The notes under the pieces were generated by a model. It saw nothing but the letters and a program-made list of their open reading frames with translations, was not told the origin of the DNA and searched no databases. A DNA stretch of 64,000 nucleotides from Acidobacteriota bacterium (GTDB taxonomy: Bacteria > Acidobacteriota > Terriglobia > Bryobacterales > Bryobacteraceae), in assembly GCA_016870915.1 (NCBI GenBank), contig VFZY01000006.1, forward strand, positions 1 through 64,000. The letters are read 5' to 3'. Position numbers and translations under genes: made by a program. This document shows, one piece after another, positions 8,267-22,373 of the stretch (position 1 is the stretch's first letter; every line of letters begins with the position of its first letter).

Positions 8267-9028
8267 GTGATTCCACGCGCCTTCTGGCTGGTTCTGCCCT
8301 TCACGGCCTGGGCTCAAACCGCGCCGCGGTACTCGGCTGAGGGGCTGGTGCACGCAGCGTCGAGCCTGGGGGGGCCGCTGGCGCCGAATACTTTGGCCAC
8401 GCTCTATGGAACAGGCCTGGCGCAGGCGGCCCGGGGTCTCCTGCCCGGGGATCTTGCCGGTCCGGTGATGCCTTCGGTGCTGCCGGGCACCGGCGTCCGG
8501 GTGTCCGTCGGGGGCCGGCAGGCGCACCTGCTGTTCGTCTCGCCAGGCCAGATCAACTTCCTGATTCCAAGCGACTTGACCCCTGGCGTTCGGAACCTGC
8601 AGGTGGGCTGGAACGGTTTGACGGGCCCGCCGATCCCATTGACCGTTGAGGAGGCTGCGCCGGAGGTCTTCCATTGGGACGGCTACGTGGTGGGGCAGCG
8701 GTTCGACGGTTCCGTGGCCAGCCGGACCGAACCCGCGCGGCCGGGGGAGGCGTTGACGGTCTGGGCCACCGGCCTGGGAAGGACCGTGCCGCCGGCCATC
8801 TACGGACAGGTCGCGCAAGGGGCTGCCGCGCTGGAGCGTTCCGGGTTCGTGGTGCTGCTGGACGGCGTGGCCGCCCCGGTTTCCTACGCCGGGCTCGCAC
8901 CGGGGTTTGCGGGGCTTTATCAGATCAATCTGCGGGTTCCGGAGTCGGCGGGGGATTGGCCGGTGATGCGGTTGGGCTTTCCGGATGGGATGAGCCGGGC
9001 CGCGGTACGGCTACCGGTAAGACGCTGA
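8267..9028 (+). CDS. Short secreted TIGR03437-domain protein
   Basis: 253 residues from a GTG start, made almost only of a signal peptide (cleaved near TAWAQT) and one TIGR03437 domain. Diagnostic stretches are LATLYGTGLAQA, LLFVSPGQINFLIP and YAGLAPGFAGLYQINLRVP. Unlike its two upstream relatives it has no Reeler-like domain and no haem motif, so it is either a single-domain family member or a truncated copy that has kept its own signal peptide. It lies downstream of a terminator and must use its own promoter. Function unknown. Confidence 0.75.
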   Translation: MIPRAFWLVLPFTAWAQTAPRYSAEGLVHAASSLGGPLAPNTLATLYGTGLAQAARGLLPGDLAGPVMPSVLPGTGVRVSVGGRQAHLLFVSPGQINFLIPSDLTPGVRNLQVGWNGLTGPPIPLTVEEAAPEVFHWDGYVVGQRFDGSVASRTEPARPGEALTVWATGLGRTVPPAIYGQVAQGAAALERSGFVVLLDGVAAPVSYAGLAPGFAGLYQINLRVPESAGDWPVMRLGFPDGMSRAAVRLPVRR

Positions 9029-9056
9029 GCGTGGTGCTATCCTCGGCTTAAGGCCG

Positions 9057-10964
9057 ATGTCTGACACTACCTCAGGGATCGAACGGAAGCTTCAGGAGTT
9101 GCCGCACACTGCATTGGTGGCCGAACGTGTTGACCTAATGGTCCAACTGGCGTGGCGGTCCCGTGAGAACGAAGAGTGGGACCGGGTGAAGGAACTGGCC
9201 ACCACGGCGCTCGAACTATCGCGAGCCGCGGGCTACCAGGCCGGGATCTCAGGCGCTCTGCGAAATCTGGCCTTCAGGGAATACATCCAGGGCGACTTGG
9301 CCGCGGCCACGGCTGGGGCTCAGGAGGCCGTGGATGCCGCCCAGAGGGCCGGCCGGGCGCGTGATGAAGCGGAGTCGCGCGGTGTTCTGGCGATGGTCCA
9401 TTGGACGCTGGGCAACATGGACATTGCGTTCGACGAAGGAACCCAGGCCCTGCGTTACTTCGAAGAGGTGGACCGGGACCCTGAGCCGCTGGGCTGGATG
9501 TATTCGATTGGCGGCATGATGCGGTTCAGCGTGGGGGATGTCGAAGGGGCGTTGGGCCAGCAGCATAAGGCTCTGGAACAGTTCAAGTCCGCGGGTCAGC
9601 GGTTGGGTGAGGCCCGGTGCTACACCGGCATGGGCACCTGCTACCAGGCGATGGGCCGAATGGAGGAGGCGGAAGGCTATTTCCAGCGGAGCCTGGAGCT
9701 GTATCGCGAACTGGGCAACGCCATGGGGATCTCGCGCGCCCTCTGCGATCTGGGGGCTCTGTGTCACGAATCGGGCCGGGACCAGGAGGCGTTGGCGCTT
9801 GAACTGGAGAGCCTCGATATCCGGGAGCGGCGTGGCAGCCGGCAGGCGATGACGACGAACCTGATTCACCTGGGCCGGCTTTACCTGAAGCAGCGTGCGT
9901 TCGGCGAGGCGCGGCGGGTGCTCGAACGCTCCCTGGCGATTGCCAACGAACTTGGCACCAAGCCGAAGGTATTCCAGGCGCATCAGGTACTGGCCGAGGT
10001 CTGCGAGGGGGAGGGCCTCTTCGAGCAGGCACTGACACACCTGAAGGCCCATCAGCAGGTGCGCGAGCAGGTATTCAGCGACGAGACGGCGCTGAAGGTT
10101 CGCAACGTTGAACTGCGTATGGCGATAGCGGCATCGCGGCGGCAGGCTGAGCTGGAACACAGTAAGAACGAGGAACTGGAAGAGAAGAACCGCGAACTGG
10201 CACGGCTGCTGGACGAACTGCAATCGACGCAGGCGCAACTGGTGCAGTCCGGCAAGATGGCGGCGCTGGGCAATCTGGTGGCGGCCCTGGCGCACGAGAT
10301 GAACTCGCCGCTGGGCGCGATTCAGAGTTCCAACGATGTGGCCCGGCGGGTGATTGCGCGGATGGGAAGCGGGGCACCCGACGGGTTGGCCAAGTCCCTC
10401 GATCTGCTTGCGCGGAACGAGGAGGTGATCGGGGTGGCCAGCGAGCGCATCGCCCAACTGATGAGGAGTCTGAAGGGCTTTGCGCGCATCGACCAGGCGC
10501 CGTTCGAACAGGTGGATCTGCGGCAGGCCATTGACCACACCCTGGTTCTGATGGAACCCCGATTCAGGAACCGGATCACCGTGCGGCGCAGCCTGGAAGA
10601 GATTCCTCCGGTGTTCTGCTACGCGGCGGAGATCAATCAGGTGCTGATGCACGTGATTGAGAATGCATGCGATGCGATTGACGGGACCGGGTGCATCGAC
10701 GTGTCAACGGCCGTGGCGGACGGTGAAATCCGGATCGTGGTGTCGGACACGGGGCGGGGCATTGCCGAAGACCGGCTGCCGGCGCTGTTTCTGCCCTCCA
10801 TCCGGCGCGATGGGGCTCGGGTGCGGGCCGCCGTGAGCCTGTTCACCTGCCAACAGATTGTCCAGAAGCACCGCGGTGAGATTCGCGTGGAGAGCCGGGC
10901 TGGACGGGGATCGAGATTCACCATCGCACTGCCCGCCGAACTGGCCACGCGCGCCGTGGCTTGA
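9057..10964 (+). CDS. TPR-repeat sensor histidine kinase (cytosolic)
   Basis: 635 residues with no membrane segment. Residues about 1-350 are helical repeats of TPR type (for example LGEARCYTGMGTCYQAMGRM), 360-400 is a charged coiled coil, then HisKA with phospho-acceptor His413 in ALAHEMNSPLG. The HATPase domain has an N box (INQVLMHVIENACDAIDG), a G1 box (VVSDTGRGIAEDRL) and a G2-like GRGSRFTIALP. Expected role is to sense a protein or ligand partner through the TPR domain and phosphorylate an unlinked response regulator; none is encoded nearby. A -10-like TATCCT lies at 9038-9043, close to the start codon. Confidence 0.88.
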   Translation: MSDTTSGIERKLQELPHTALVAERVDLMVQLAWRSRENEEWDRVKELATTALELSRAAGYQAGISGALRNLAFREYIQGDLAAATAGAQEAVDAAQRAGRARDEAESRGVLAMVHWTLGNMDIAFDEGTQALRYFEEVDRDPEPLGWMYSIGGMMRFSVGDVEGALGQQHKALEQFKSAGQRLGEARCYTGMGTCYQAMGRMEEAEGYFQRSLELYRELGNAMGISRALCDLGALCHESGRDQEALALELESLDIRERRGSRQAMTTNLIHLGRLYLKQRAFGEARRVLERSLAIANELGTKPKVFQAHQVLAEVCEGEGLFEQALTHLKAHQQVREQVFSDETALKVRNVELRMAIAASRRQAELEHSKNEELEEKNRELARLLDELQSTQAQLVQSGKMAALGNLVAALAHEMNSPLGAIQSSNDVARRVIARMGSGAPDGLAKSLDLLARNEEVIGVASERIAQLMRSLKGFARIDQAPFEQVDLRQAIDHTLVLMEPRFRNRITVRRSLEEIPPVFCYAAEINQVLMHVIENACDAIDGTGCIDVSTAVADGEIRIVVSDTGRGIAEDRLPALFLPSIRRDGARVRAAVSLFTCQQIVQKHRGEIRVESRAGRGSRFTIALPAELATRAVA

Positions 10965-11018
10965 CCTTGGCTTGTTCAACCCCGGCGGGGGACCAGCCCG
11001 TCACGGGATAATCGTGGG

Positions 11019-13004: not shown

Positions 13005-13747
13005 AACGCCGGCTGACGTACGGAATGGTGGCCGCCGGCAACCTGAGCCTGAACTGGGTGGCACGCCTGCCTGGGCTGCCCGAATGTCTGGGCCCGGTGA
13101 AAGGAACCTCATCGTTCCGCGTGGCCAGCCGTCTGGTGAACTCGCTGGGGGCCGGCTTCGCTGTGAAGGACTACGATCCTCTGGGCGATGTGGACGTGGT
13201 GCTGATGGTGATGCCCGATGCGGCCGTGATGGAGGCCTGCCGCGCGATGGCGGCGACACGGGTGGACTGGACCGGCAGAACCATCCTGCTGTGCAGCGTG
13301 GCCCTGGATGCGTCCTTCATTGAGCCCCTTCGGCGCCGCGGCGCCTTGACCGCCTCGGTGTTTCCGGCCGAAGGCGTGGAGGAAAACGCGCTGCTGTTTC
13401 ACGGCTGCCGTGAAGCGGCCAAGGCGCTCAAGCCGTTGATCGCCGGGGCGCAGGTGCGTGTCGTGGAACTGGCTGACAAGGGGCAGTATGTCGACGGCCA
13501 CCGGATCGCCACCAGCGTGGTGACGGGGGTGATCGCCACGGCGCATGAGTGCCTTCTCGCTTCGGGTCTGGAGCCGGCGCTGGCGCTCGCTGGTGTGGAC
13601 CAGCTGGTTCGCCGCACTCTGCAGGGTTACATCAAGGCGGGCCGGCGTGGGCGGCTGCTCGATTCCGACGGCATCGCTCACTTGGGCAGGGTGCTGTTCA
13701 AGGAGATCAGCGAGGACGGAAAGGCCCGGGCGGCCGCTTCCGAGTGA
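13001..13747 (+). CDS. Rossmann-fold DUF2520-like (NADP-oxidoreductase-like) protein
   Basis: 248 residues. The N-terminal part resembles the Rossmann-like domain of DUF2520/F420-dependent NADP oxidoreductase proteins ([19 protein letters not shown], then [14 protein letters not shown]), although the nucleotide-binding glycine pattern is weak. The C-terminal helical part (from about residue 150) fits the ProC/DUF2520 dimerisation domain. The GTG start overlaps the uvrB stop, so it is coupled to uvrB. Its last 70 bases overlap the 3' end of qhpE on the opposite strand. Function unknown; a structural link to DNA repair is not evident. Confidence 0.6.
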
Positions 13748-14334
13748 CAGTATCGAGCCGCGATGCCGGTCATTCGCGCGACGGCGAAGCTGATGCCGCG
13801 CAGATTTCGTTCGGGCGGCACGCCTGGAATTTCCCGCGCGTAGCCCGAGGTGAGAAAGACCGGGGCGCCCCCGCGCATTTCATGCCGGAATGTTGTGGTG
13901 GGGCACGCCCAATCGACATCGACGGCGATGACGCCAGGAAGTCCAGCCGGCAAGGGCGGTCCGGCGGGTGTCATGGCCGGGGCAAAAACAGGGCCCGATG
14001 CCGCGGCCAGCAACGCTTCAAAACGCGGCCGGTGTTCCGGGTTGCTGGTGCCGAGGCTCAAGTTAATGAACCGGGCGCCTCGGGCAAAACACCAGTGGAG
14101 TGCCCGTTCCAGGGTGTCGATGCTGGTGACCAGTTGCCGGTCGAAGACCTTGGCGATGAGCAGGCGGGAACCGGGTGACCATTCCTCGATCAGCCCGGCG
14201 ACAGCGGTGCCATGGCCAATTCCATCCAGCCAGGTGCCGCCGGTGAACGTTTCCGCGGCTTCGATCTCGCCCACGTGGGGATGGCCCGGGTGGATGCCGC
14301 TATCGACGATGGCGATGAGAGGAGGCGTGCTCAT
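13678..14334 (-). CDS. qhpE: Subtilisin-like serine protease of the QHNDH operon (leader peptidase)
   Basis: 218 residues, a compact S8-family protease with no signal peptide or propeptide. The triad is visible: Asp11 (IVDSGIHPG), His41 (GIGHGTAVAG) and Ser182 (GISFAVARMTG, the GTSxA-like box). The usual oxyanion Asn motif is not obvious (APAMTPAGPP takes that place). In Paracoccus QhpE removes the leader of the cross-linked gamma subunit in the cytosol before export. Its position as last gene here, overlapping the exporter gene stop by an ATGA, supports that role. Gene name is assigned from motifs and operon context. Confidence 0.85.
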   Translation of the reverse strand: MSTPPLIAIVDSGIHPGHPHVGEIEAAETFTGGTWLDGIGHGTAVAGLIEEWSPGSRLLIAKVFDRQLVTSIDTLERALHWCFARGARFINLSLGTSNPEHRPRFEALLAAASGPVFAPAMTPAGPPLPAGLPGVIAVDVDWACPTTTFRHEMRGGAPVFLTSGYAREIPGVPPERNLRGISFAVARMTGIAARYCHSEAAARAFPSSLISLNSTLPK

Positions 14335-15977
14335 GGCGCGGCCCCCAGCACGGCGCGCTGGGTGGCCAGGCCGAGCAGCGCCGGGCGGTGCGTCACGAGG
14401 ATTGCCGTGCGCCCCTGAAGTGCCTGGGCCAGTTGATCGCGAAGGGCGAGTTCCGTTTGCTCATCGAGCGCGGACGTGGGTTCATCCAGGATTACGATGG
14501 GGGCGTCGCGCAGCAGGGCGCGGGCAATCGCGATGCGCTGGCGCTCTCCGGCGGAGAGGGCGAGGCCACGATCGCCCGCGATCGTATCGTAACCCTGCGG
14601 CAGGGCCGCGATGAAGTCGTGGATCGCCGCCGCGCGAGCGGCCGCCTCGATCCGGCTCTGCGAGGCCGCGGGGTCCGCGTAGGCGATGTTCTCTCGCAGC
14701 GAGGCGTGAAAGATGAGCGGCGTTTGTTCCACGGTGGCAATCGCGGTGCGAAGGTAGGTGAAGGGCAGGCCTCGCAGATCGTGCCCATCCAGCAGGATGC
14801 GGCCCGCTTGCGGATCCTCGAAACGAAGCAGGAGATCGGCGAGCGTGCTCTTGCCCGCCCCCGTGGGCCCGGTGACGGCGCAGATGGCGCCGGCCGGGAT
14901 GTGCAGGCTGAAGTGCGAGAGCACCTGATCGCGGCCCTGTTCGAAGCTTACATCCTCAAAGCGGATCTCGCCTTGCGGCGGCGGCAGGGCGGCACTCTGC
15001 GCGGGCTCGGCGACGGCGGGGTGGGTATCGAAAAGATCGGTCACACGCCGCAGGGAAACCGCGCCTGTCACCAGGCTGGTGTGCAGCCCCATCAGGCTCT
15101 GCACGGGCGCGAGCAGGCGCAGATGATAGGCCATGAACGCCACCAGCGCGCCAATGGTCAGCTTGCCCTCGATCACACGCGCCCCACCCACGGTGAAGAC
15201 CACCGCCGTGGCGATGGTCAGGATGGCGCCAGGGAAGAGGCCGGCTTTAAGATTGGCCCGCTGCATCAGCAGCAAAGCATCCAGAAACAGCTGGTTGTGC
15301 CGGGTGAAACGGGCGCCTTCGGCGCGCTCACGATTCGACGCGGCCACCAGGCGGTGAAGCGAAAGAGTCTCGATGAGGAATGTTCCGATGCCGGCGCTGC
15401 GTTCACGAACGGCGGCGGTGTGTTGCGCCAACTCGGCCTGGCAGCGGCGGAGTGCCCAGACGCTGGCGGGGATGAGCGCGACACTGGCCAGCGAAAGCAC
15501 CGGGTCAAGCAGCAGCATCACGATCAGGCTGCCGGCCAGGAACAGGACATTGGATATCGCCGCCAGAATGGTGTCGGCCGCGATTCGTTGCACCTCACCG
15601 ACATCGTTGTTGAGGCGTGAAACCAACTCACCCAGGCGCCAGCCCGCGAATTGGCGTGGGGACCATCGCAGTAGATGCGCGTAGAGCGCGGAACGCATGT
15701 CAAAGAGGATGGCCGCCGAAGTCTTTGTATAACGCAGGCTGGCCGCGGCCCCCAGGAGCGACGCGGCCAAGGCGGCGCACACCATCCAGGCCGCGATACG
15801 GCCCAACGCACCCAGATCGTGCACCGTCAGGGCATCGTCAATCAGCAGCTTTGAAAAGTAGGGCTGCAGCAGACCGACCGACGTACCCAGGAGAGAAAGA
15901 CACCCCACCAGGGCCAGTTGCGGAAGGTAGGGCCGCAGGAACGGCATCACCCGTCTGTATGGAGCCAGGGGGGTCAC
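14331..15977 (-). CDS. qhpF: ABC exporter of the QHNDH operon
   Basis: About 548 residues: an N-terminal six-helix exporter domain followed by an ATPase domain with Walker A GPTGAGKST (near residue 370), signature LSAGERQRIAIARAL (near 475) and Walker B IVILDEPTSALDE. I start it at the GTG at 15977, which overlaps the upstream stop (GTGA); a GTG at 15998 is also open. QhpF is thought to export the processed, thioether-cross-linked QhpC to the periplasm, because QhpC has no Sec or Tat signal. The half-transporter would act as a homodimer. Confidence 0.88.
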   Translation of the reverse strand: MTPLAPYRRVMPFLRPYLPQLALVGCLSLLGTSVGLLQPYFSKLLIDDALTVHDLGALGRIAAWMVCAALAASLLGAAASLRYTKTSAAILFDMRSALYAHLLRWSPRQFAGWRLGELVSRLNNDVGEVQRIAADTILAAISNVLFLAGSLIVMLLLDPVLSLASVALIPASVWALRRCQAELAQHTAAVRERSAGIGTFLIETLSLHRLVAASNRERAEGARFTRHNQLFLDALLLMQRANLKAGLFPGAILTIATAVVFTVGGARVIEGKLTIGALVAFMAYHLRLLAPVQSLMGLHTSLVTGAVSLRRVTDLFDTHPAVAEPAQSAALPPPQGEIRFEDVSFEQGRDQVLSHFSLHIPAGAICAVTGPTGAGKSTLADLLLRFEDPQAGRILLDGHDLRGLPFTYLRTAIATVEQTPLIFHASLRENIAYADPAASQSRIEAAARAAAIHDFIAALPQGYDTIAGDRGLALSAGERQRIAIARALLRDAPIVILDEPTSALDEQTELALRDQLAQALQGRTAILVTHRPALLGLATQRAVLGAAP

Positions 15978-16984
15978 GGAGCCGTCTGGTAGTAGCACAT
16001 GTAGCCGGCGTCGCAGTGTTCCGGCTCCTGCCTTAGGGCGCGGGCATTGCCAATGATCACCGGGCGTGCCGTGCGGGCGTGCACCTGGTCGGCAATGTGG
16101 CGCACCATGCGCACGCTGGCCAACTTACGGAAGGGGCTGGATTCCCGGCCCACCACCTTGAGCGAAGCCACGCCGAAGCGCGCCAGATCATGCAGGGCGC
16201 ACAGGGCACAGGGTCCGTACGGCAGGCCCTTGGCAGTGGCCGAACAGCCGTTCCCAGTCAGGTACCAGACCCAGGCGCGGTAGTCTTCCAGATTGGCACG
16301 GAGCCAGCGCTCCCGGCGGCTGGAAAAGTACTTGCCGCTCCAGGCGAAATCGGCCTTCATGCCGGAAAGGCTGGTGCAGAACGCTCCCACCGAATGGTGA
16401 TGCGTGGTGGAGCAGAAGCCCTCTTCAAAGGCGCAGCCGTCGTTCAACGCGAACACCTCGATTTCGACCAGATCCTTTGTCTGGCCCGTGATGTGTTCGA
16501 TTTCGGCCAGCGTCACACTGCGCGGCAGGATGACGCGCGAGGCGCCCAGGCCGGCCAGAAACCGGATGGCCTCCGTGTTCAATGTGGCGGCCACGGAACT
16601 GACGTGCAGCCTGGCGTTGAGGCGCAGCGATGCTGCCTGCGCCAGCAGGTTGACGTCCGCAATGATCAGCGCATCCACGCCGCACTCTTCGGAAAGGCGT
16701 TGGGCGAACCGCAACACCTGCGGCGCCTGGGTGGGTCCGTACGAGGGGGCATTGAGTGTGGCGAACAGGGGCAGGCCGCGGAGACGGGCGGCATCTGCCA
16801 GTTCCCGCATGTCAGCCCAGCTTTCAACGGAACTGCCCTTGGGGCTGCGGCGGTGCAGCCAGAGGGGGCCGGGGTTTTCATCCACCCACTCCCGCGGCGC
16901 CAGGCCGCAATACAGCTCCTGGGCGCCGGCTGTATGCAGCATCTCCAGTTCGTCGAGCGAGCGGATGGGCGCCAGGACCTTCAT
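15974..16984 (-). CDS. U32-family protein, UbiU-like (candidate O2-independent hydroxylase subunit)
   Basis: 336 residues. U32 hallmarks are present: the N-terminal ELYCGL strand motif, EIEVFALNDGC, and the closing GVASLKVVGRESSPFRKLASV block. Cysteines at 184, 191 and 203 (CX6C then C after 11 residues), plus Cys259/Cys262 in GPCALC, resemble the four [4Fe-4S] ligands of E. coli UbiU in order, though with different later spacing. UbiU, RlhA and TrhP are U32 proteins that hydroxylate substrates without O2; the old name 'peptidase U32' is misleading. It overlaps the next U32 gene by ATGA and sits inside the qhp operon. I infer a role in making the CTQ cofactor; a peptidase role cannot be excluded. 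Confidence 0.75.
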   Translation of the reverse strand: MKVLAPIRSLDELEMLHTAGAQELYCGLAPREWVDENPGPLWLHRRSPKGSSVESWADMRELADAARLRGLPLFATLNAPSYGPTQAPQVLRFAQRLSEECGVDALIIADVNLLAQAASLRLNARLHVSSVAATLNTEAIRFLAGLGASRVILPRSVTLAEIEHITGQTKDLVEIEVFALNDGCAFEEGFCSTTHHHSVGAFCTSLSGMKADFAWSGKYFSSRRERWLRANLEDYRAWVWYLTGNGCSATAKGLPYGPCALCALHDLARFGVASLKVVGRESSPFRKLASVRMVRHIADQVHARTARPVIIGNARALRQEPEHCDAGYMCYYQTAP

Positions 16985-17802
16985 GCGGCGGCTCCCAGAA
17001 CGTGCATGGGCAGTTCGGGCTGGATCACCAGCCGGTCCACCGCCCCCGCGCCGGCCAACGCGAGAATGGATGCGATGGCGGCCTCGGTCTGCCGGTAGAA
17101 GTACGTGTTGCCCTTCAGCAGGAACTGCTGATCCTGGTTCTGGAACGGGCTATTGGCGTAGGTGAAGACCACCTGGTGCGTCTGGCATTCATGACGGCAC
17201 GGAGCGCCCGGCTGGAATTTCCGCTCCTTGCGGTAGTGCAGACCCGCGGCCTGGCAAACACGGCTGGTGCTGACGAAGCCATAGGGCAGGTAGACACTCA
17301 CCGGTGCGGGCGGAAGCGCGGCATCAAAACCCTGCGGAAGAGCATCCAGTTCGACGCGCCGGACGCCCAGCCCTCGCAGCATTTCCCGGTAGGAATGATT
17401 CTCCACGGTTGATTGCCGCAGCGCCGGCAGGGGATCGCTGAAAAGCTCCATCACGCGGGGATCGCGCAGGGCCTTGTGGAGAAGGCGGCCCTGCACGGGA
17501 ACCAGGGCGGGGAAGTCGCGCCTCAGAACATTGAGAACGCCCCAGTCCGAAAACGCCACCTCGGCACCTGGCGGCAAGATCGCAAACAAGGAAGCCAGCC
17601 GCGCCACCCCTCGGTCCGAGACGTAGGGCGTGAGCAGGGTCAGGGGCAGGCGATCATCCAACGCGCGGCGCAGCGCATCGGGCGACGGAATGAGGTGTTC
17701 GCAGAACTCATTGCCCACATAGCGGCGCGAAAAGAGAATTTCGGGGGGAAGACCCGCGATTCCGCGCGCGGCGTTCGCGTTGCCGTGGATGGACCATTCC
17801 AT
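16981..17802 (-). CDS. U32-like protein, UbiV-like (candidate partner of the UbiU-like protein)
   Basis: 273 residues. Four cysteines (34, 183, 202 and 206; C...C-X18-C-X3-C) follow the ligand order of UbiV, whose cluster is held by one early Cys and a late C-X12-C-X3-C set. The early one is in YVGNEFCEHL, which aligns with the 'VGxxxC' strand of UbiV, and the late ones are in VSTSRVCQAAG and APCRHECQTH. Similarity is weaker than for its neighbour, but UbiU and UbiV also work as a diverged heterodimer encoded side by side. The ATG lies eight bases after the qhpB stop. Expected in the cytosol. The fold and iron-sulfur cluster are inferences from the cysteine pattern. Confidence 0.65.
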   Translation of the reverse strand: MEWSIHGNANAARGIAGLPPEILFSRRYVGNEFCEHLIPSPDALRRALDDRLPLTLLTPYVSDRGVARLASLFAILPPGAEVAFSDWGVLNVLRRDFPALVPVQGRLLHKALRDPRVMELFSDPLPALRQSTVENHSYREMLRGLGVRRVELDALPQGFDAALPPAPVSVYLPYGFVSTSRVCQAAGLHYRKERKFQPGAPCRHECQTHQVVFTYANSPFQNQDQQFLLKGNTYFYRQTEAAIASILALAGAGAVDRLVIQPELPMHVLGAAA

Positions 17803-17810
17803 GACGGCGG

Positions 17811-18908
17811 TCAGCGCGGCAGCGCCACCATGTTGGTGGTGATGTCGGCGCCCACATCAATGGTGCGGCGCGGCTGGAACGTAGCCGCGTCGAAAACCTC
17901 AATCTCAAAGCCGGCGCCGAAAACGTAGAGATCGCGGCCCGAAGGCGAGATGGTGAAGTTGAACCGGGTGCGCCCGGCGAACTCGGCTTTCCGCTTGAGT
18001 TCGCGGCTGGTGAGGTCGAACTCCCAGAATTCGCTGCGCCGGTTGGCGCCATCGCCATTGAAGGCCACCGTGTAGCCCTTCATCCGGTCCGGCGTCATAT
18101 GCAGGCCCATCATGCCCGTGGTGGCCGGCGCCACGGGCTTAAAGTCGAAGCTGCGCTTGTTCAGATCGAAACGGGCGATGCCGAACACACGGCGGTGCAC
18201 GTGGGGATCGGTTGTATTGAAGATACCGAGCAGCGTGTTCGGGTCCTCATGCGGATCGTCACCAAAGCCCACAAAAACGCGCTCCATCCCCGGAAAGACG
18301 GGCTTCGACAGATCGATTGTGTCGACAAGCTTGAACGTTGTGGCGTCCAGAACAAAGATGTTCTCGCGGAAGTAGTAGATGTGCTTGCCATCGGGCGCCA
18401 CACGGAGGGCGCCGAACCGGGCGCCGGCATTCGGTTCCAGTTCCTTGGGCAGGTCATGCTCGCGGACAATTTTCCTGGCGGCCAGATCGATCACGGCCAC
18501 GCGGTTCTTGTCTACTTCAAACCGGTCGATCTTCTTCGTGACGGAATACAGATTGGCATAAAGGAGCGTGGCATCGGCGTTCAACGCCATGCCTCCCAGG
18601 CGGTACTTGCGCGTCTCGGTATTCAGCACGAAGTGGCTTGTCACCTGGCGCGACGCCAGATCGATTACCTCGATGCCGCTGTCCTTGGTGGTGGTGGCCA
18701 CCATCAGCTTCCGGTCATTGGAAAGCATCAACGAACGCGGCACGCCTGTCTTCAGATCGATCTTGCCCACCGCCTTTTGCTGCGCTTCATCGAAGATGTG
18801 CACGGTGGCGGGCCAGGAGCCCAGATAGAGGGTGCCGCCGGGCTTCTGAGCCCAGGCCGCGTGGGCCCAAGCCGCGGCGCCCACTGCCAGCAGCAGGAGC
18901 GTTCTCAT
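17811..18908 (-). CDS. qhpB: Quinohemoprotein amine dehydrogenase, propeller (beta) subunit
   Basis: 365 residues with a signal peptide (MRTLLLLAVGAAAWAHAAWAQ) and repeats of a YVTN/WD-type seven-bladed propeller, for example GGTLYLGSWPATVHIFD and SPSGRDLYVFGAGFEIEVFD. In QHNDH this subunit covers the small CTQ subunit in the periplasm and lines the substrate channel. The ATG at 18908 overlaps the qhpC stop (ATGA), so it is coupled to its partner subunit. An upstream in-frame start at 18956 is less likely because it would bury the signal peptide. Confidence 0.88.
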   Translation of the reverse strand: MRTLLLLAVGAAAWAHAAWAQKPGGTLYLGSWPATVHIFDEAQQKAVGKIDLKTGVPRSLMLSNDRKLMVATTTKDSGIEVIDLASRQVTSHFVLNTETRKYRLGGMALNADATLLYANLYSVTKKIDRFEVDKNRVAVIDLAARKIVREHDLPKELEPNAGARFGALRVAPDGKHIYYFRENIFVLDATTFKLVDTIDLSKPVFPGMERVFVGFGDDPHEDPNTLLGIFNTTDPHVHRRVFGIARFDLNKRSFDFKPVAPATTGMMGLHMTPDRMKGYTVAFNGDGANRRSEFWEFDLTSRELKRKAEFAGRTRFNFTISPSGRDLYVFGAGFEIEVFDAATFQPRRTIDVGADITTNMVALPR

Positions 18909-19243
18909 GGAAACACCAGATCGATGTTGCGCCAGTCCTTGGTGGCCGTGGCGCACTTGGCCGTCCAGTCCGGGTAGTTGTTGAGATGGTCGGGCACCTG
19001 CGCGGGCCAGAAGCAGGTGACATAGCAGTCGTATAGGTCGCGCTCGACGGGCTGGCAGAGCCCGGCTGTGCCGCCGGCCGCATCCACTTCCCAGCCGGGC
19101 ATGAACACCAGGGAGCAGCCCATCGGAATGTGCGGGCGCGGCTGCGGGCCGCCCTGCTGCAAACCGACGATGTCTCCTTGCGTGGCAGCGATGTGATCGT
19201 CAATTTGACGGGCTTTCCGGTTCACAGGGCGTAGGCGCCTCAT
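18905..19243 (-). CDS. qhpC: Quinohemoprotein amine dehydrogenase, CTQ-bearing gamma subunit precursor
   Basis: 112 residues from the ATG at 19243, with AAAGGAGA eight bases upstream. The first 36 or so residues are a leader without a secretion signal. The mature part aligns residue for residue in spacing with the Paracoccus gamma subunit. Predicted thioether bonds are Cys43-Glu52, Cys63-Asp69 and Cys77-Asp85, and predicted cysteine tryptophylquinone is Cys73-Trp79, inside GLCQPVERDLYDC and YVTCFWPAQVPD. Asp69 would also be the catalytic base. The product is cross-linked by QhpD, trimmed by QhpE and exported by QhpF. Assignment is very firm because all eight reacting residues are kept. Confidence 0.95.
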   Translation of the reverse strand: MRRLRPVNRKARQIDDHIAATQGDIVGLQQGGPQPRPHIPMGCSLVFMPGWEVDAAGGTAGLCQPVERDLYDCYVTCFWPAQVPDHLNNYPDWTAKCATATKDWRNIDLVFP

Positions 19244-19257
19244 GCCGCTTTTCTCCT

Positions 19258-20667
19258 TTAGAAGTGGTTCAGGAATGCCGGGTTTCGAGCAGCGATCTCG
19301 CCGTAAATCCGCAGGCACAGCGCGGTCCAATCACGGATCCAGTCGCAGTAGTGCAGGTTGGGATGGCCGGTATCGCCGTACCGGACGAACGCCTCATGGT
19401 GGCATCCGCCGGCGCAGAGCGGGCGTGCGAAACAGGTGTGGCAGTCGTACTTGCGGTTGATGTGTCCGCGGTGCAGGAAGTCGGCCTGCCGCGCGGTGTC
19501 GATACCCGTGGAAACATGGCCCAGCGCGTGGGCGTCCGAATCGACAAAGCGGTGGCACGGGGCGATGTCACCCGAGGGGCCAATGCCCACCAGGCCAAGT
19601 CCGGCGCCGCAGGGATGGGACTTGTTCACGCCCTGGTGGATTTCAGTTAGCGTGTCGCTGACGTTTGAGAACCCGTGCGTTTCATTGCGCAGGGCATGAT
19701 CCCGGTACTCCTCCGCCAGAAACCTGAACTGTTCGAGCACACGATCGAGCCCCTGCGGCCCTATCGAATAGAGGCGATTCGACGACGTGGTTACCGGGGC
19801 GAAACCCACTTCCGTGAAGCCCAGATCGTGCTTCAGGTGTTTGAAAATGCCCAGCACGTCGGTGACCTCGGCCGTGAGGGTGACCCGGGCCGCGATGGGC
19901 CGCGTAGTGTGCCGCGCAAGCAGGGCCCGCACCTTGGGTGCGATCACTCCATAGGAGCCGCGTCCGTTGGCAAACACACGCAGCTTATCATTCAACTCCG
20001 GCGGTCCATCCAATGACACCGTGACGCCGATATTCTCATTCGCCAGGAACTCGATGATTTCCGGCGTCAGCAGGGTGCCGTTCGTGGTGAGGCTGAAATC
20101 GACATACTGACCGCCTTCGGCCGCGCGAACCTTGGCATACTCCACCACGCGCTCCAGCAGGCGGAAATTCATCAGCGTTTCACCGCCAAAGAACGTGATG
20201 GAGACCGCGCGCCGGCCAGCAGCCTGAACGAAAAGATAGTCCACCGACGCCTGGGCCGTCTCCCAATCCATGAACTTGGGCTTGCCTTCCGGCGTCGCCA
20301 CGCGGTCTTCCCCAAACTCGTAGCAATACTGGCAGGACAGATTGCATTGATTGGTAAGGTTCAGCACCAGGGTCTGCAACGGAAACGGCGTGACGGGCTG
20401 CTCTTCCATCGCCGGCGCCGCATCCTCACCGCCAATCAGACGCGCGCCGCGCATCTCCTCAACGGTCTCCTCGGCTTCCCCGGCGGAGATGCCCCGCGCA
20501 ATGAGTCCTTCGAGAAGCTCCTGCTGATCGAGCGCGCCCTCCCGCAGCAAATCGAGAGCCAGCTGTGCGCTTCGCGGCAACTGGAACACCGCGCCGCTCG
20601 GTAAGTACGCAAACGGCTCCCCCGCCGCTTCGAACGTGTGCGCTTCGAGCGGTGCCAGCGGTGTCAC
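19258..20667 (-). CDS. qhpD: Radical SAM/SPASM enzyme forming the QhpC thioether cross-links
   Basis: 469 residues from the GTG at 20667 that overlaps the qhpA stop; a TTG at 20691 is also open. Radical SAM motif CNLSCQYC gives Cys108, Cys112 and Cys115. A SPASM domain follows with CHTCFARPLCAGGC (Cys409, 412, 418, 422) and Cys441 for auxiliary [4Fe-4S] clusters. GGETLMNF is the SAM-binding GGE motif. The N-terminal 95 residues resemble a peptide-recognition (RRE-like) domain. QhpD is known to join Cys sulfur to Asp/Glu beta or gamma carbons in QhpC. It acts in the cytosol and is anaerobic chemistry. Confidence 0.93.
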   Translation of the reverse strand: MTPLAPLEAHTFEAAGEPFAYLPSGAVFQLPRSAQLALDLLREGALDQQELLEGLIARGISAGEAEETVEEMRGARLIGGEDAAPAMEEQPVTPFPLQTLVLNLTNQCNLSCQYCYEFGEDRVATPEGKPKFMDWETAQASVDYLFVQAAGRRAVSITFFGGETLMNFRLLERVVEYAKVRAAEGGQYVDFSLTTNGTLLTPEIIEFLANENIGVTVSLDGPPELNDKLRVFANGRGSYGVIAPKVRALLARHTTRPIAARVTLTAEVTDVLGIFKHLKHDLGFTEVGFAPVTTSSNRLYSIGPQGLDRVLEQFRFLAEEYRDHALRNETHGFSNVSDTLTEIHQGVNKSHPCGAGLGLVGIGPSGDIAPCHRFVDSDAHALGHVSTGIDTARQADFLHRGHINRKYDCHTCFARPLCAGGCHHEAFVRYGDTGHPNLHYCDWIRDWTALCLRIYGEIAARNPAFLNHF

Positions 20668-22358
20668 TGCGCCACCTCGGGCTGATCCCAACGCATGTAG
20701 AGCGGAATTGTCACCACAAGATAACTCTTCGCCTGAACCGGCCGTCCATCCTTGGCCACGGCGGCGTCCTGGCCCTTATACGTGCCCACCACCCAGACGT
20801 CGCCATAGTTGTTCCGGCTGAACTTGCGCTTGGGATTGGGGCCCTCACTGGCCGGCGTGAACAGCCCTGTGGGGCCAAGCGTGCCGACGAACTCCTTGTC
20901 GTCATCGCCATAAACGGCCAGGAACTCCTCCATGGACCACTCCACCGGCACCACACCCAGATCGATGTCGTCCGCTGTGCCAGGCTTGTCATCGGCGCCG
21001 CGATTGAAGCCAATGGCCTCGAACTGAACCAGCCCTTTGGGATGGGTGTTGCCGCCCAGCCGCGCCAGACCCGTGGCCGGAGTCACCTTCAACGCATCCA
21101 CGGTGTCATAGACCGCCACCGCGCCGGCAAGCGCCGCCCGGCGGATCATCAAGTCGCGCCGGCCATTCACTGCGTTGGCCGCCACATCCACACGCACCCG
21201 GATCGCCGACGCAGTCTGCTCCTCGATCGAAGCCACCGTGATCCCATTGCCGAAATCGATGTCGCGCGGTGTGAGGCCAGCGGGGAACGCATCGCCATGA
21301 ATCCGGATCTCCTGCCCCTGCGTGCCGCGGCGAAGACCCGTGCGGCTTGTGCCCAGGATCAGCGCTTCACCCGCGCGCGTCAGCTTCACGTCGTAACCGA
21401 ACTCGTCGTAGCCGCCCCAGAACCAGCGGCCCTCCATGGTCAACTGATCGCGCGAGACCATCATCACCTCGCGCAGCTGCCGCGGGTCCGCCGCGCCGTC
21501 GCTGCGCCCGCGCCAGGCGTATCCGGTGTAGACAAGGCCTCGGCCCTTCCGCGATTCCACGCGGCCATCGCCATGGTGCATCGTGATGGACGAGGTGAAT
21601 TCGCCTTCGCCCGCCGGCTCCAGCAGCAGTTCGCCAAACACGCGGCTGTGACCGGGCCGCCGTGCCGAAATCAACCATCGCCCGGCCAGACGGGGCGTAC
21701 GCATGCTCGCCTGCCAGTTGGCCCACTCCGGTGTGCGCAGGGGGTACGCCTTGGCCAGATGCTCAAGCGCCTTCTCCACGGGGTGGCGCGAATCCGCGCC
21801 GGGTGCGGGCGGCGGCGCTCCAAAGTTCGGCCGGTTGCGGAACGCGGTGAACTCAACCACGGGAAAGTATCCGGTGTGCATCGCGCCAAGAAGATCCCAC
21901 TCTTCCTTTGACCGGCGCCAGTTCATGGGCTGGCCCCAGGCATGGCATGAGATGCAGGCATCGCGAGCCACGTCCGGAACCTCCTCATCCACGTGCCGCT
22001 TCTCATGGAAATAGACGGCAGGCTTCGCCTCTTCCGGCGCCAGTCCATGGGATGCGGAAAGCGCGCGCACAACGTGCCGCGCCTCGTCCGGAGTGAGCGT
22101 CACGCCGTTCAGCCGTACCATGCGCTTGATCACCTGCTGCCAGCCTTCGGGTGTCGTGCGTTCCCAGGAGATCCGCGTCAGGTTGCCCTTCTCGTCCTTG
22201 GCGTGGCAGCCGGAACATTTCCGGATCACCAGTTCATTCGTCACCGGGATTCCGGGCTCGGACGGTTCGGGCTTGGCGGCCTCCGGCTTGGCGGGCGCCG
22301 CCGGGGGCGCTTGCGCAAACAGGCCCGCCGCGGCCACAAGAGGAGCGAGGATTCGCAT
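20664..22358 (-). CDS. qhpA: Quinohemoprotein amine dehydrogenase, dihaem alpha subunit
   Basis: 564 residues from the ATG at 22358, giving signal peptide MRILAPLVAAAGLFAQA; a GTG at 22370 is an alternative. After an Ala/Pro-rich linker come two c-type haem sites, CSGCH (Cys48, Cys51, His52) and CISCH (Cys135, Cys138, His139), then about 400 residues of beta-rich domains, as in the QHNDH alpha subunit. It takes electrons from CTQ in QhpC and passes them to a periplasmic acceptor. Substrates of the family are primary amines. It follows the oligopeptidase gene with a 15-base gap. Confidence 0.92.
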   Translation of the reverse strand: MRILAPLVAAAGLFAQAPPAAPAKPEAAKPEPSEPGIPVTNELVIRKCSGCHAKDEKGNLTRISWERTTPEGWQQVIKRMVRLNGVTLTPDEARHVVRALSASHGLAPEEAKPAVYFHEKRHVDEEVPDVARDACISCHAWGQPMNWRRSKEEWDLLGAMHTGYFPVVEFTAFRNRPNFGAPPPAPGADSRHPVEKALEHLAKAYPLRTPEWANWQASMRTPRLAGRWLISARRPGHSRVFGELLLEPAGEGEFTSSITMHHGDGRVESRKGRGLVYTGYAWRGRSDGAADPRQLREVMMVSRDQLTMEGRWFWGGYDEFGYDVKLTRAGEALILGTSRTGLRRGTQGQEIRIHGDAFPAGLTPRDIDFGNGITVASIEEQTASAIRVRVDVAANAVNGRRDLMIRRAALAGAVAVYDTVDALKVTPATGLARLGGNTHPKGLVQFEAIGFNRGADDKPGTADDIDLGVVPVEWSMEEFLAVYGDDDKEFVGTLGPTGLFTPASEGPNPKRKFSRNNYGDVWVVGTYKGQDAAVAKDGRPVQAKSYLVVTIPLYMRWDQPEVAQ

Positions 22359-22373
22359 GAATTTGGCCACCCC

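Follow-up and report, generated by a model that had tools for sequence, protein, structure and literature searches.

A qhp operon variant of an Acidobacteriota bacterium with a UbiU/UbiV-like gene pair as candidate for O2-independent CTQ formation

We analyzed a 64,000-nt stretch of DNA (the window) from contig VFZY01000006.1 of an Acidobacteriota bacterium (GCA_016870915.1), and all coordinates are positions in this window. The open reading frames and their matches to Pfam and NCBIfam models revealed eight genes in the order A-D-C-B-V-U-F-E, all on the minus strand. QhpU and QhpV are names newly proposed here for the two U32-type genes.

20664..22370, minus strand: qhpA, alpha subunit with c-type haem domains (TIGR03908, 508 bits, cut-off 274; PF09098, PF14930, PF09099, PF09100)
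19258..20691, minus strand: qhpD, radical SAM thioether-forming maturase (TIGR03906, 581 bits, cut-off 453)
18905..19243, minus strand: qhpC, gamma subunit with leader, three thioether cross-link pairs and the CTQ precursor Cys73/Trp79 (NF037958, PF08992, PDB 1jmx; exact spacing)
17811..18908, minus strand: qhpB, beta subunit (TIGR03907, 58.5 bits, under the cut-off of 223; same position in related operons)
16981..17802, minus strand: QhpV, UbiV-like, 273 aa (hhalign to UbiV; four conserved Cys; predicted TIM barrel)
15974..16984, minus strand: QhpU, UbiU-like U32 protein, 336 aa (PF01136; hhalign to UbiU; Cys map)
14331..15998, minus strand: qhpF, ABC exporter (PF00664, PF00005; conserved beside QhpU)
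13678..14334, minus strand: qhpE, subtilisin-like leader protease (NF049966, E 1e-36, 126 bits, under the cut-off of 165)

Because of ATGA overlaps at qhpC/qhpB, QhpV/QhpU and qhpF/qhpE and an overlap of 25 bases between QhpU and qhpF, the operon looks like one translationally coupled unit. The canonical set of qhpA, qhpB, qhpD, qhpE and qhpF was found beside qhpC, and QhpB and QhpE were recognizable though they scored under their cut-offs. The first-pass annotation had called the assignment to a qhp operon firm. This was borne out by qhpA and qhpD, which flank qhpC and both scored above cut-off (508 and 581 bits). Judged from its gene content, this is a complete variant of the qhp operon for a CTQ-containing quinohemoprotein amine dehydrogenase (QHNDH). 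It shares the subunits A, B and C as well as QhpD, QhpE and QhpF with the qhp operons of Paracoccus denitrificans and Pseudomonas putida (QhpABCDEFGR). In contrast to these, it lacks QhpG, and a pair of U32-type genes separates qhpB from qhpF.

The qhpC gene starts with ATG downstream of an AAAGGAG-type site and encodes 112 amino acids. The protein matched PF08992 with an E-value of 8.6e-37 (125.5 bits, cut-off 25) and NF037958 with 133.7 bits (cut-off 50). The known gamma subunits 1jmx_G and 1jju_C in the PDB were matched with E-values of 2.5e-25 and 9.3e-24, respectively, and residues 41-112 aligned to them without gaps. With a constant offset of 36, Cys43, Glu52, Cys63, Asp69, Cys73, Cys77, Trp79 and Asp85 correspond to residues 7, 16, 27, 33, 37, 41, 43 and 49 of the Paracoccus protein. 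All cross-link and CTQ residues of the Paracoccus denitrificans and Pseudomonas putida proteins are thus shared, and the spacings that had been proposed to equal those of the Paracoccus gamma subunit were all exact. A six-frame scan of the window found the complete spacing pattern once. By its sequence, the gene at 18905-19243 is a genuine and normal QHNDH gamma subunit.

The whole fixed spacing pattern was kept in 65 of 77 QhpC frames from the fetched loci, and a pattern with a variable gap between Glu16 and Cys27 was kept in 75 of 77. Five duplicate loci (L082, L088, L089, L091 and L092) were left out of the motif and cysteine counts. The two misses were L053, in which the frame is cut by the contig end, and L102. 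Since the spacing is a property of the family, its finding in the window is correct but ordinary, and with 75 of 77 relatives sharing it, we dropped it as the chief point of interest. In L102, which is from a MAG of the Deltaproteobacteria, QhpC has Thr at the position of the CTQ Cys, one additional residue ahead of the following Cys, and a retained Trp. Its cofactor may do without the link to Cys, or the sequence may contain an error.

An N-terminal leader block of QhpC is conserved in the alignment. The window QhpC differs from the proteins of Paracoccus denitrificans and Pseudomonas putida by an insertion of extra residues between this block, which ends with DIVGLQQ, and Gly-Cys43. The accessible part of PMC7876137 gives a length of 28 residues for the QhpC leader. 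The longer leader of 36 residues proposed earlier for the window was not supported in this form: because the extra residues lie behind the conserved leader block, a leader of about 28 residues, followed by an extended N-terminus of the mature protein, and a leader of about 36 residues both fit, depending on where QhpE cleaves.

Two further positions differ from the proteins of these two species. Cys97 (18953-18955) is a fifth cysteine, which was nearly invariant in an alignment of 20 rows but is Ala in those of Pseudomonas and Paracoccus. At Trp42 (Paracoccus numbering), the window protein has Phe78. Acidobacterial QhpC proteins from operons with QhpG (L026, L031, L033 and L037) show the extra Cys and the Phe as well, so these features do not track the U32-type pair. 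The exchange of Trp42 to Phe was therefore dropped as a marker of the pair.

According to the sections of PMC7876137 available to us, QhpG is an FAD monooxygenase (PDB 7ctq) that introduces two hydroxyls from O2 onto the CTQ Trp. It is described there as essential for the quinone in characterized systems, and the gamma subunit lacks the quinone when QhpG is missing. Neither qhpG nor any other oxygenase-like gene was found in the window operon by inspection of the open reading frames and their Pfam and NCBIfam matches. We also searched the genome of the window with a QhpG profile (A4; 12 rows, 476 positions) and found no full-length QhpG. The best match scored 158.5 bits, covered positions 9-314 of the 476, and was located on a different contig (C277). 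The first-pass annotation was right about the QHNDH gamma subunit and the qhp operon and, apart from the leader length, went astray in missing the absence of qhpG and the presence of a UbiU/UbiV-like pair.

UbiU and UbiV hydroxylate ubiquinone precursors without O2, and their substrate is a small lipid. QhpU matched PF01136 with 112.7 bits, above the gathering cut-off of 22.4. The nearest NCBIfam model was UbiU (NF047963; E 5.8e-23, 81.5 bits, under the equivalog cut-off of 440), and the TrhP model was matched with 49.3 bits (E 3.3e-13, cut-off 534). For profile comparison, UbiU and UbiV profiles were built from four plasmid-borne ubi clusters. The hhalign comparison of QhpU with UbiU gave a probability of 99.9 and an E-value of 3.2e-33, and probabilities for four unrelated control profiles were below 1. 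The cluster cysteines of UbiU aligned with Cys184, Cys191, Cys203 and Cys247 (or the neighboring Cys245) of QhpU; the accessible part of PMC6747719 contains the published motifs of UbiU and UbiV. All four were present in 42 of 45 QhpU proteins including that of the window, the exceptions being L105, L109 and L123 (L101 and L108 were too short and were left out of the QhpU counts). QhpU differs from UbiU by a second set of cysteines, C259-X2-C262 and C324-X5-C330, which was invariant in 45 of 45 proteins and missing in the UbiU rows. An additional Fe-S cluster formed by Cys259, Cys262, Cys324 and Cys330 is a reasonable guess.

The AlphaFold model of QhpU (pLDDT 83.3) had the U32 protein 5d88 as its best solved fold match (Foldseek E 1.6e-8; Z 17.5), with other TIM barrels within 1 Z unit. 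Searches of PDB sequences gave no match for a QhpU profile of seven rows and only chance matches for the single sequence. In plasmid records, the window QhpU matched UbiU-type genes at 24-29% identity among the matches listed, and two divergent QhpU queries gave no match at E 1e-20.

QhpV gave no match to Pfam (including PF01136) or NCBIfam models, even at an E-value of 10. By hhalign, it matched UbiV with a probability of 68.7 and an E-value of 4.5e-5, and QhpU with a probability of 90%. The four cluster cysteines of UbiV aligned with Cys34, Cys183, Cys202 and Cys206 of QhpV, and these were invariant in 43 of 43 proteins. The AlphaFold model (pLDDT 88.2) matched the U32 protein 5d88 with a Z of 10.5, tied with many unrelated TIM barrels (VIA-align), and the top rows of Foldseek were chitinase-like TIM barrels with low TM-scores. 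Because the top matches were tied TIM barrels, the fold comparison points to a TIM barrel but to nothing more specific. We conclude that QhpV appears to be a distant relative of UbiV, with a weaker homology than that between QhpU and UbiU, and a probable partner in an O2-independent Trp hydroxylation.

The window operon thus resembles the UbiU-UbiV ubiquinone hydroxylase system (with UbiT) in having adjacent UbiU-like and UbiV-like genes with both Cys sets. It differs in the gene order, V-U instead of U-V, and in the expected substrate, which would be a peptidyl Trp. A ubiT (SCP2) gene was not found in the operon, which holds A, D, C, B, V, U, F and E only. QhpU also resembles the RNA hydroxylases TrhP and RlhA in its U32 family membership and cysteine motif, but these are single proteins that act on RNA, unlike the QhpU/QhpV pair. 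Hydroxylation by TrhP and RlhA is reported to be O2-independent in the accessible part of PMC11574389.

The first QhpU alignment was scanned against 84,980 species genomes, which resulted in 45 loci from 43 genomes (L101 and L108 share a genome, as do L111 and L121). In 35 of the 45 loci, QhpU had one or more qhp genes as neighbors. QhpC was present in 37 of the 43 genomes, in 29 of them within the locus and in 8 elsewhere in the genome, compared to a background of 29 of 396 genomes in a sample of the phylum; the QhpC of locus L126 scored 33 bits. Record titles assigned the QhpU loci to Acidobacteria, Bacillota, Deltaproteobacteria, Nitrospinota and Alpha-/Betaproteobacteria, with Schinkia azotoformans, Calidifontibacillus, Brevibacillus, Magnetospirillum, Telmatospirillum and Burkholderiales among the named carriers.

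QhpC was not detected in six of the 43 pair-bearing genomes (L095, L105, L106, L109, L112 and L123). Some members of the pair must therefore act otherwise, or the target was missed. Three of these loci, L105, L109 and L123, are also those whose QhpU is without the fourth UbiU-type Cys. They carry stand-alone QhpV/QhpU-like pairs (at about 8800-11000) in Bacillota, including Acididesulfobacillus acetoxydans. No recognizable peptide target was found among the neighbors of the pair in L105, L106, L109 and L123.

Three proteobacterial loci (L110, L111 and L114) harbor QhpG together with the pair in one operon of the order G-A-D-C-B-F-E-V-U. O2-dependent and O2-independent hydroxylases also coexist in the ubiquinone pathway, and these loci likewise combine the genes for an O2-dependent hydroxylase and a candidate O2-independent one. 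Genome G416 has two QhpC loci on the contigs of L060 and L059, one with D-C-V-U-F-E (no qhpA or qhpB) and one with A-D-C-B (no F or E and no hydroxylase), as if one maturation set were shared.

We compared the distribution of the pair and of QhpG in 52 genomes, a set that was anchored on QhpC and not on the pair. It was drawn from 6 of 41 relatives, the other carriers in the phylum sample (29 of 396 genomes), genomes above cut-off in the orders of G467 (5 of 399) and G466 (12 of 248), and the family of G789 (2 additional genomes of 64). G820 and G1054, which scored under the family cut-off, and G465 and G470, which had been found through the pair, were left out. QhpU was called in 22 of the 52 genomes by a score of at least 288 bits (next best 100), and QhpG in 30 of the 52 by a score of at least 239 bits with a match reaching at least profile position 422 (next best 212 bits, ending at 366). 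Eighteen genomes had QhpU only, 26 had QhpG only, 4 had both, and 4 had neither. The pair was hence present in 18 of the 22 QhpC genomes without QhpG. In the four genomes with both (G081, G156, G230 and G292), the pair was on a different contig from qhp; the loci L110, L111 and L114 are not part of this set.

Fisher's test gave p-values of 7.9e-7 for the 52 genomes and 8.7e-6 for 49 genomes after removal of the biased centers G000, G466 and G467, values that are descriptive only, ignore kinship and overstate the association because the distribution is clumped in the phylogeny. A QhpD tree of 51 rows (G027 was left out, as its contig holds no QhpD) showed at least 4 changes of QhpG, at least 9 of QhpU and 3 independent contrasts, of which most pointed the expected way; with just 3 contrasts, a sign test cannot reach significance.

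The four genomes with neither (G024, G264, G280 and G391) encode a short flavoprotein of about 340 aa beside qhpE, which scored 20-44 bits with the QhpG profile; in one of these genomes, it also matched Pfam FAD_binding_3. In the QhpC loci L051, L055, L056 and L057, where full QhpG and the U32 pair are both missing, a short QhpG-like flavoprotein lies next to qhpE. On a Novosphingobium plasmid (L046), a match to the short-flavoprotein profile lies inside the operon, and this locus probably also carries the gene. The short flavoprotein is a possible third type of hydroxylase.

Gene content and order, the lack of a full-length QhpG, the homology to UbiU and UbiV, the kept cluster cysteines and the complementary distribution of QhpG led us to propose that QhpU and QhpV replace QhpG, which is the simplest reading of the operon. 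The expected reaction and substrate would be the same as for QhpG, the peptidyl tryptophan dihydroxylase (PDB 7ctq), although QhpU and QhpV belong to an unrelated protein family, and the O2-dependent FAD monooxygenase itself is absent here. We consider it likely that a U32 Fe-S heterodimer of QhpU and QhpV performs the Trp-hydroxylating step in place of the O2-dependent QhpG. With slightly more reserve, we also favor the wider view of an O2-independent pathway to CTQ that is widespread and relies on a UbiU/UbiV-type U32 heterodimer to hydroxylate Trp in a cross-linked protein.

An unlinked flavoprotein monooxygenase could instead perform the QhpG step, the U32 pair then doing other work such as assembly or assistance with haem or export. 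The match on contig C277 (158.5 bits) would be a candidate for such an enzyme, and three QhpG genomes (G001, G227 and G415) indeed hold QhpG on a contig other than that of qhpC. However, the C277 match does not extend into the C-terminal third of QhpG, and incomplete matches of a similar kind were found as second copies in QhpG-bearing genomes (G147, G348 and G156) and in G443, a genome without QhpC. Together with the frequent presence of the pair in QhpC genomes without QhpG (18 of 22), this makes an unlinked monooxygenase improbable. Slightly less probable still is that a different residue of QhpC is the one hydroxylated by the pair, or that the pair adds an extra modification, with CTQ oxygenation being autocatalytic or achieved by the haems of QhpA. 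The extra conserved Cys97 and the exchange of Trp42 to Phe78 would be in line with this, but both also occur in QhpC from QhpG operons, and the quinone-less phenotype in the absence of QhpG, as described in the accessible text of PMC7876137, argues against a spontaneous route. A role as a real peptidase in leader removal or QhpC turnover, as suggested by the name of PF01136 (Peptidase_U32) and by the need to remove the QhpC leader, is very improbable and was rejected, since subtilisin-like qhpE (NF049966, E 1e-36) is present and accompanies the pair in the majority of complete operons, cluster cysteines aligning with those of UbiU and UbiV make up the conserved residues, and characterized relatives are treated as hydroxylases in the accessible part of a review (PMC11574389).

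If QhpU and QhpV replace QhpG, QhpD would first make the three Cys-Asp/Glu thioethers in QhpC, as expected from the known system. The QhpU-QhpV complex, bound to the cross-linked QhpC, would hydroxylate Trp79 (Paracoccus 43) without O2. A small organic molecule would donate the oxygen; by analogy with UbiU/UbiV in ubiquinone synthesis and with the RNA hydroxylases (PMC11574389, in part), it may be prephenate. Formation of the Cys73-Trp79 bond and oxidation would lead to CTQ, QhpE would remove the leader, and QhpF would export the chain.

Although an O2-dependent flavoprotein is described as a requirement for CTQ formation, such amine dehydrogenases have been reported from anaerobic growth. Schmitt et al. 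reportedly stated in 2019 that CTQ maturation needs no O2. By its title, as cited in PMC10413684 and PMC11231019, their paper deals with two such enzymes that initiate anaerobic amine degradation in Aromatoleum aromaticum. Anaerobic amine degradation by such enzymes implies that an O2-free route to CTQ should exist. In the accessible parts of the literature, we found no U32 oxidase that acts on a protein. We also found no paper linking QHNDH with U32 proteins in a search whose coverage mostly excluded subscription papers, among them the Aromatoleum paper as the likeliest place.

The operon supplies specific candidate genes for the missing step in CTQ formation, and QhpU/QhpV is a well-supported candidate for O2-independent CTQ formation in a new variant of the qhp operon. 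If this is true, U32 oxidases would be extended from lipid and RNA to a protein substrate, and amine dehydrogenases could mature under anoxia. QhpC would then offer a soluble substrate, amenable to genetics, for studying how U32 oxidases insert oxygen.
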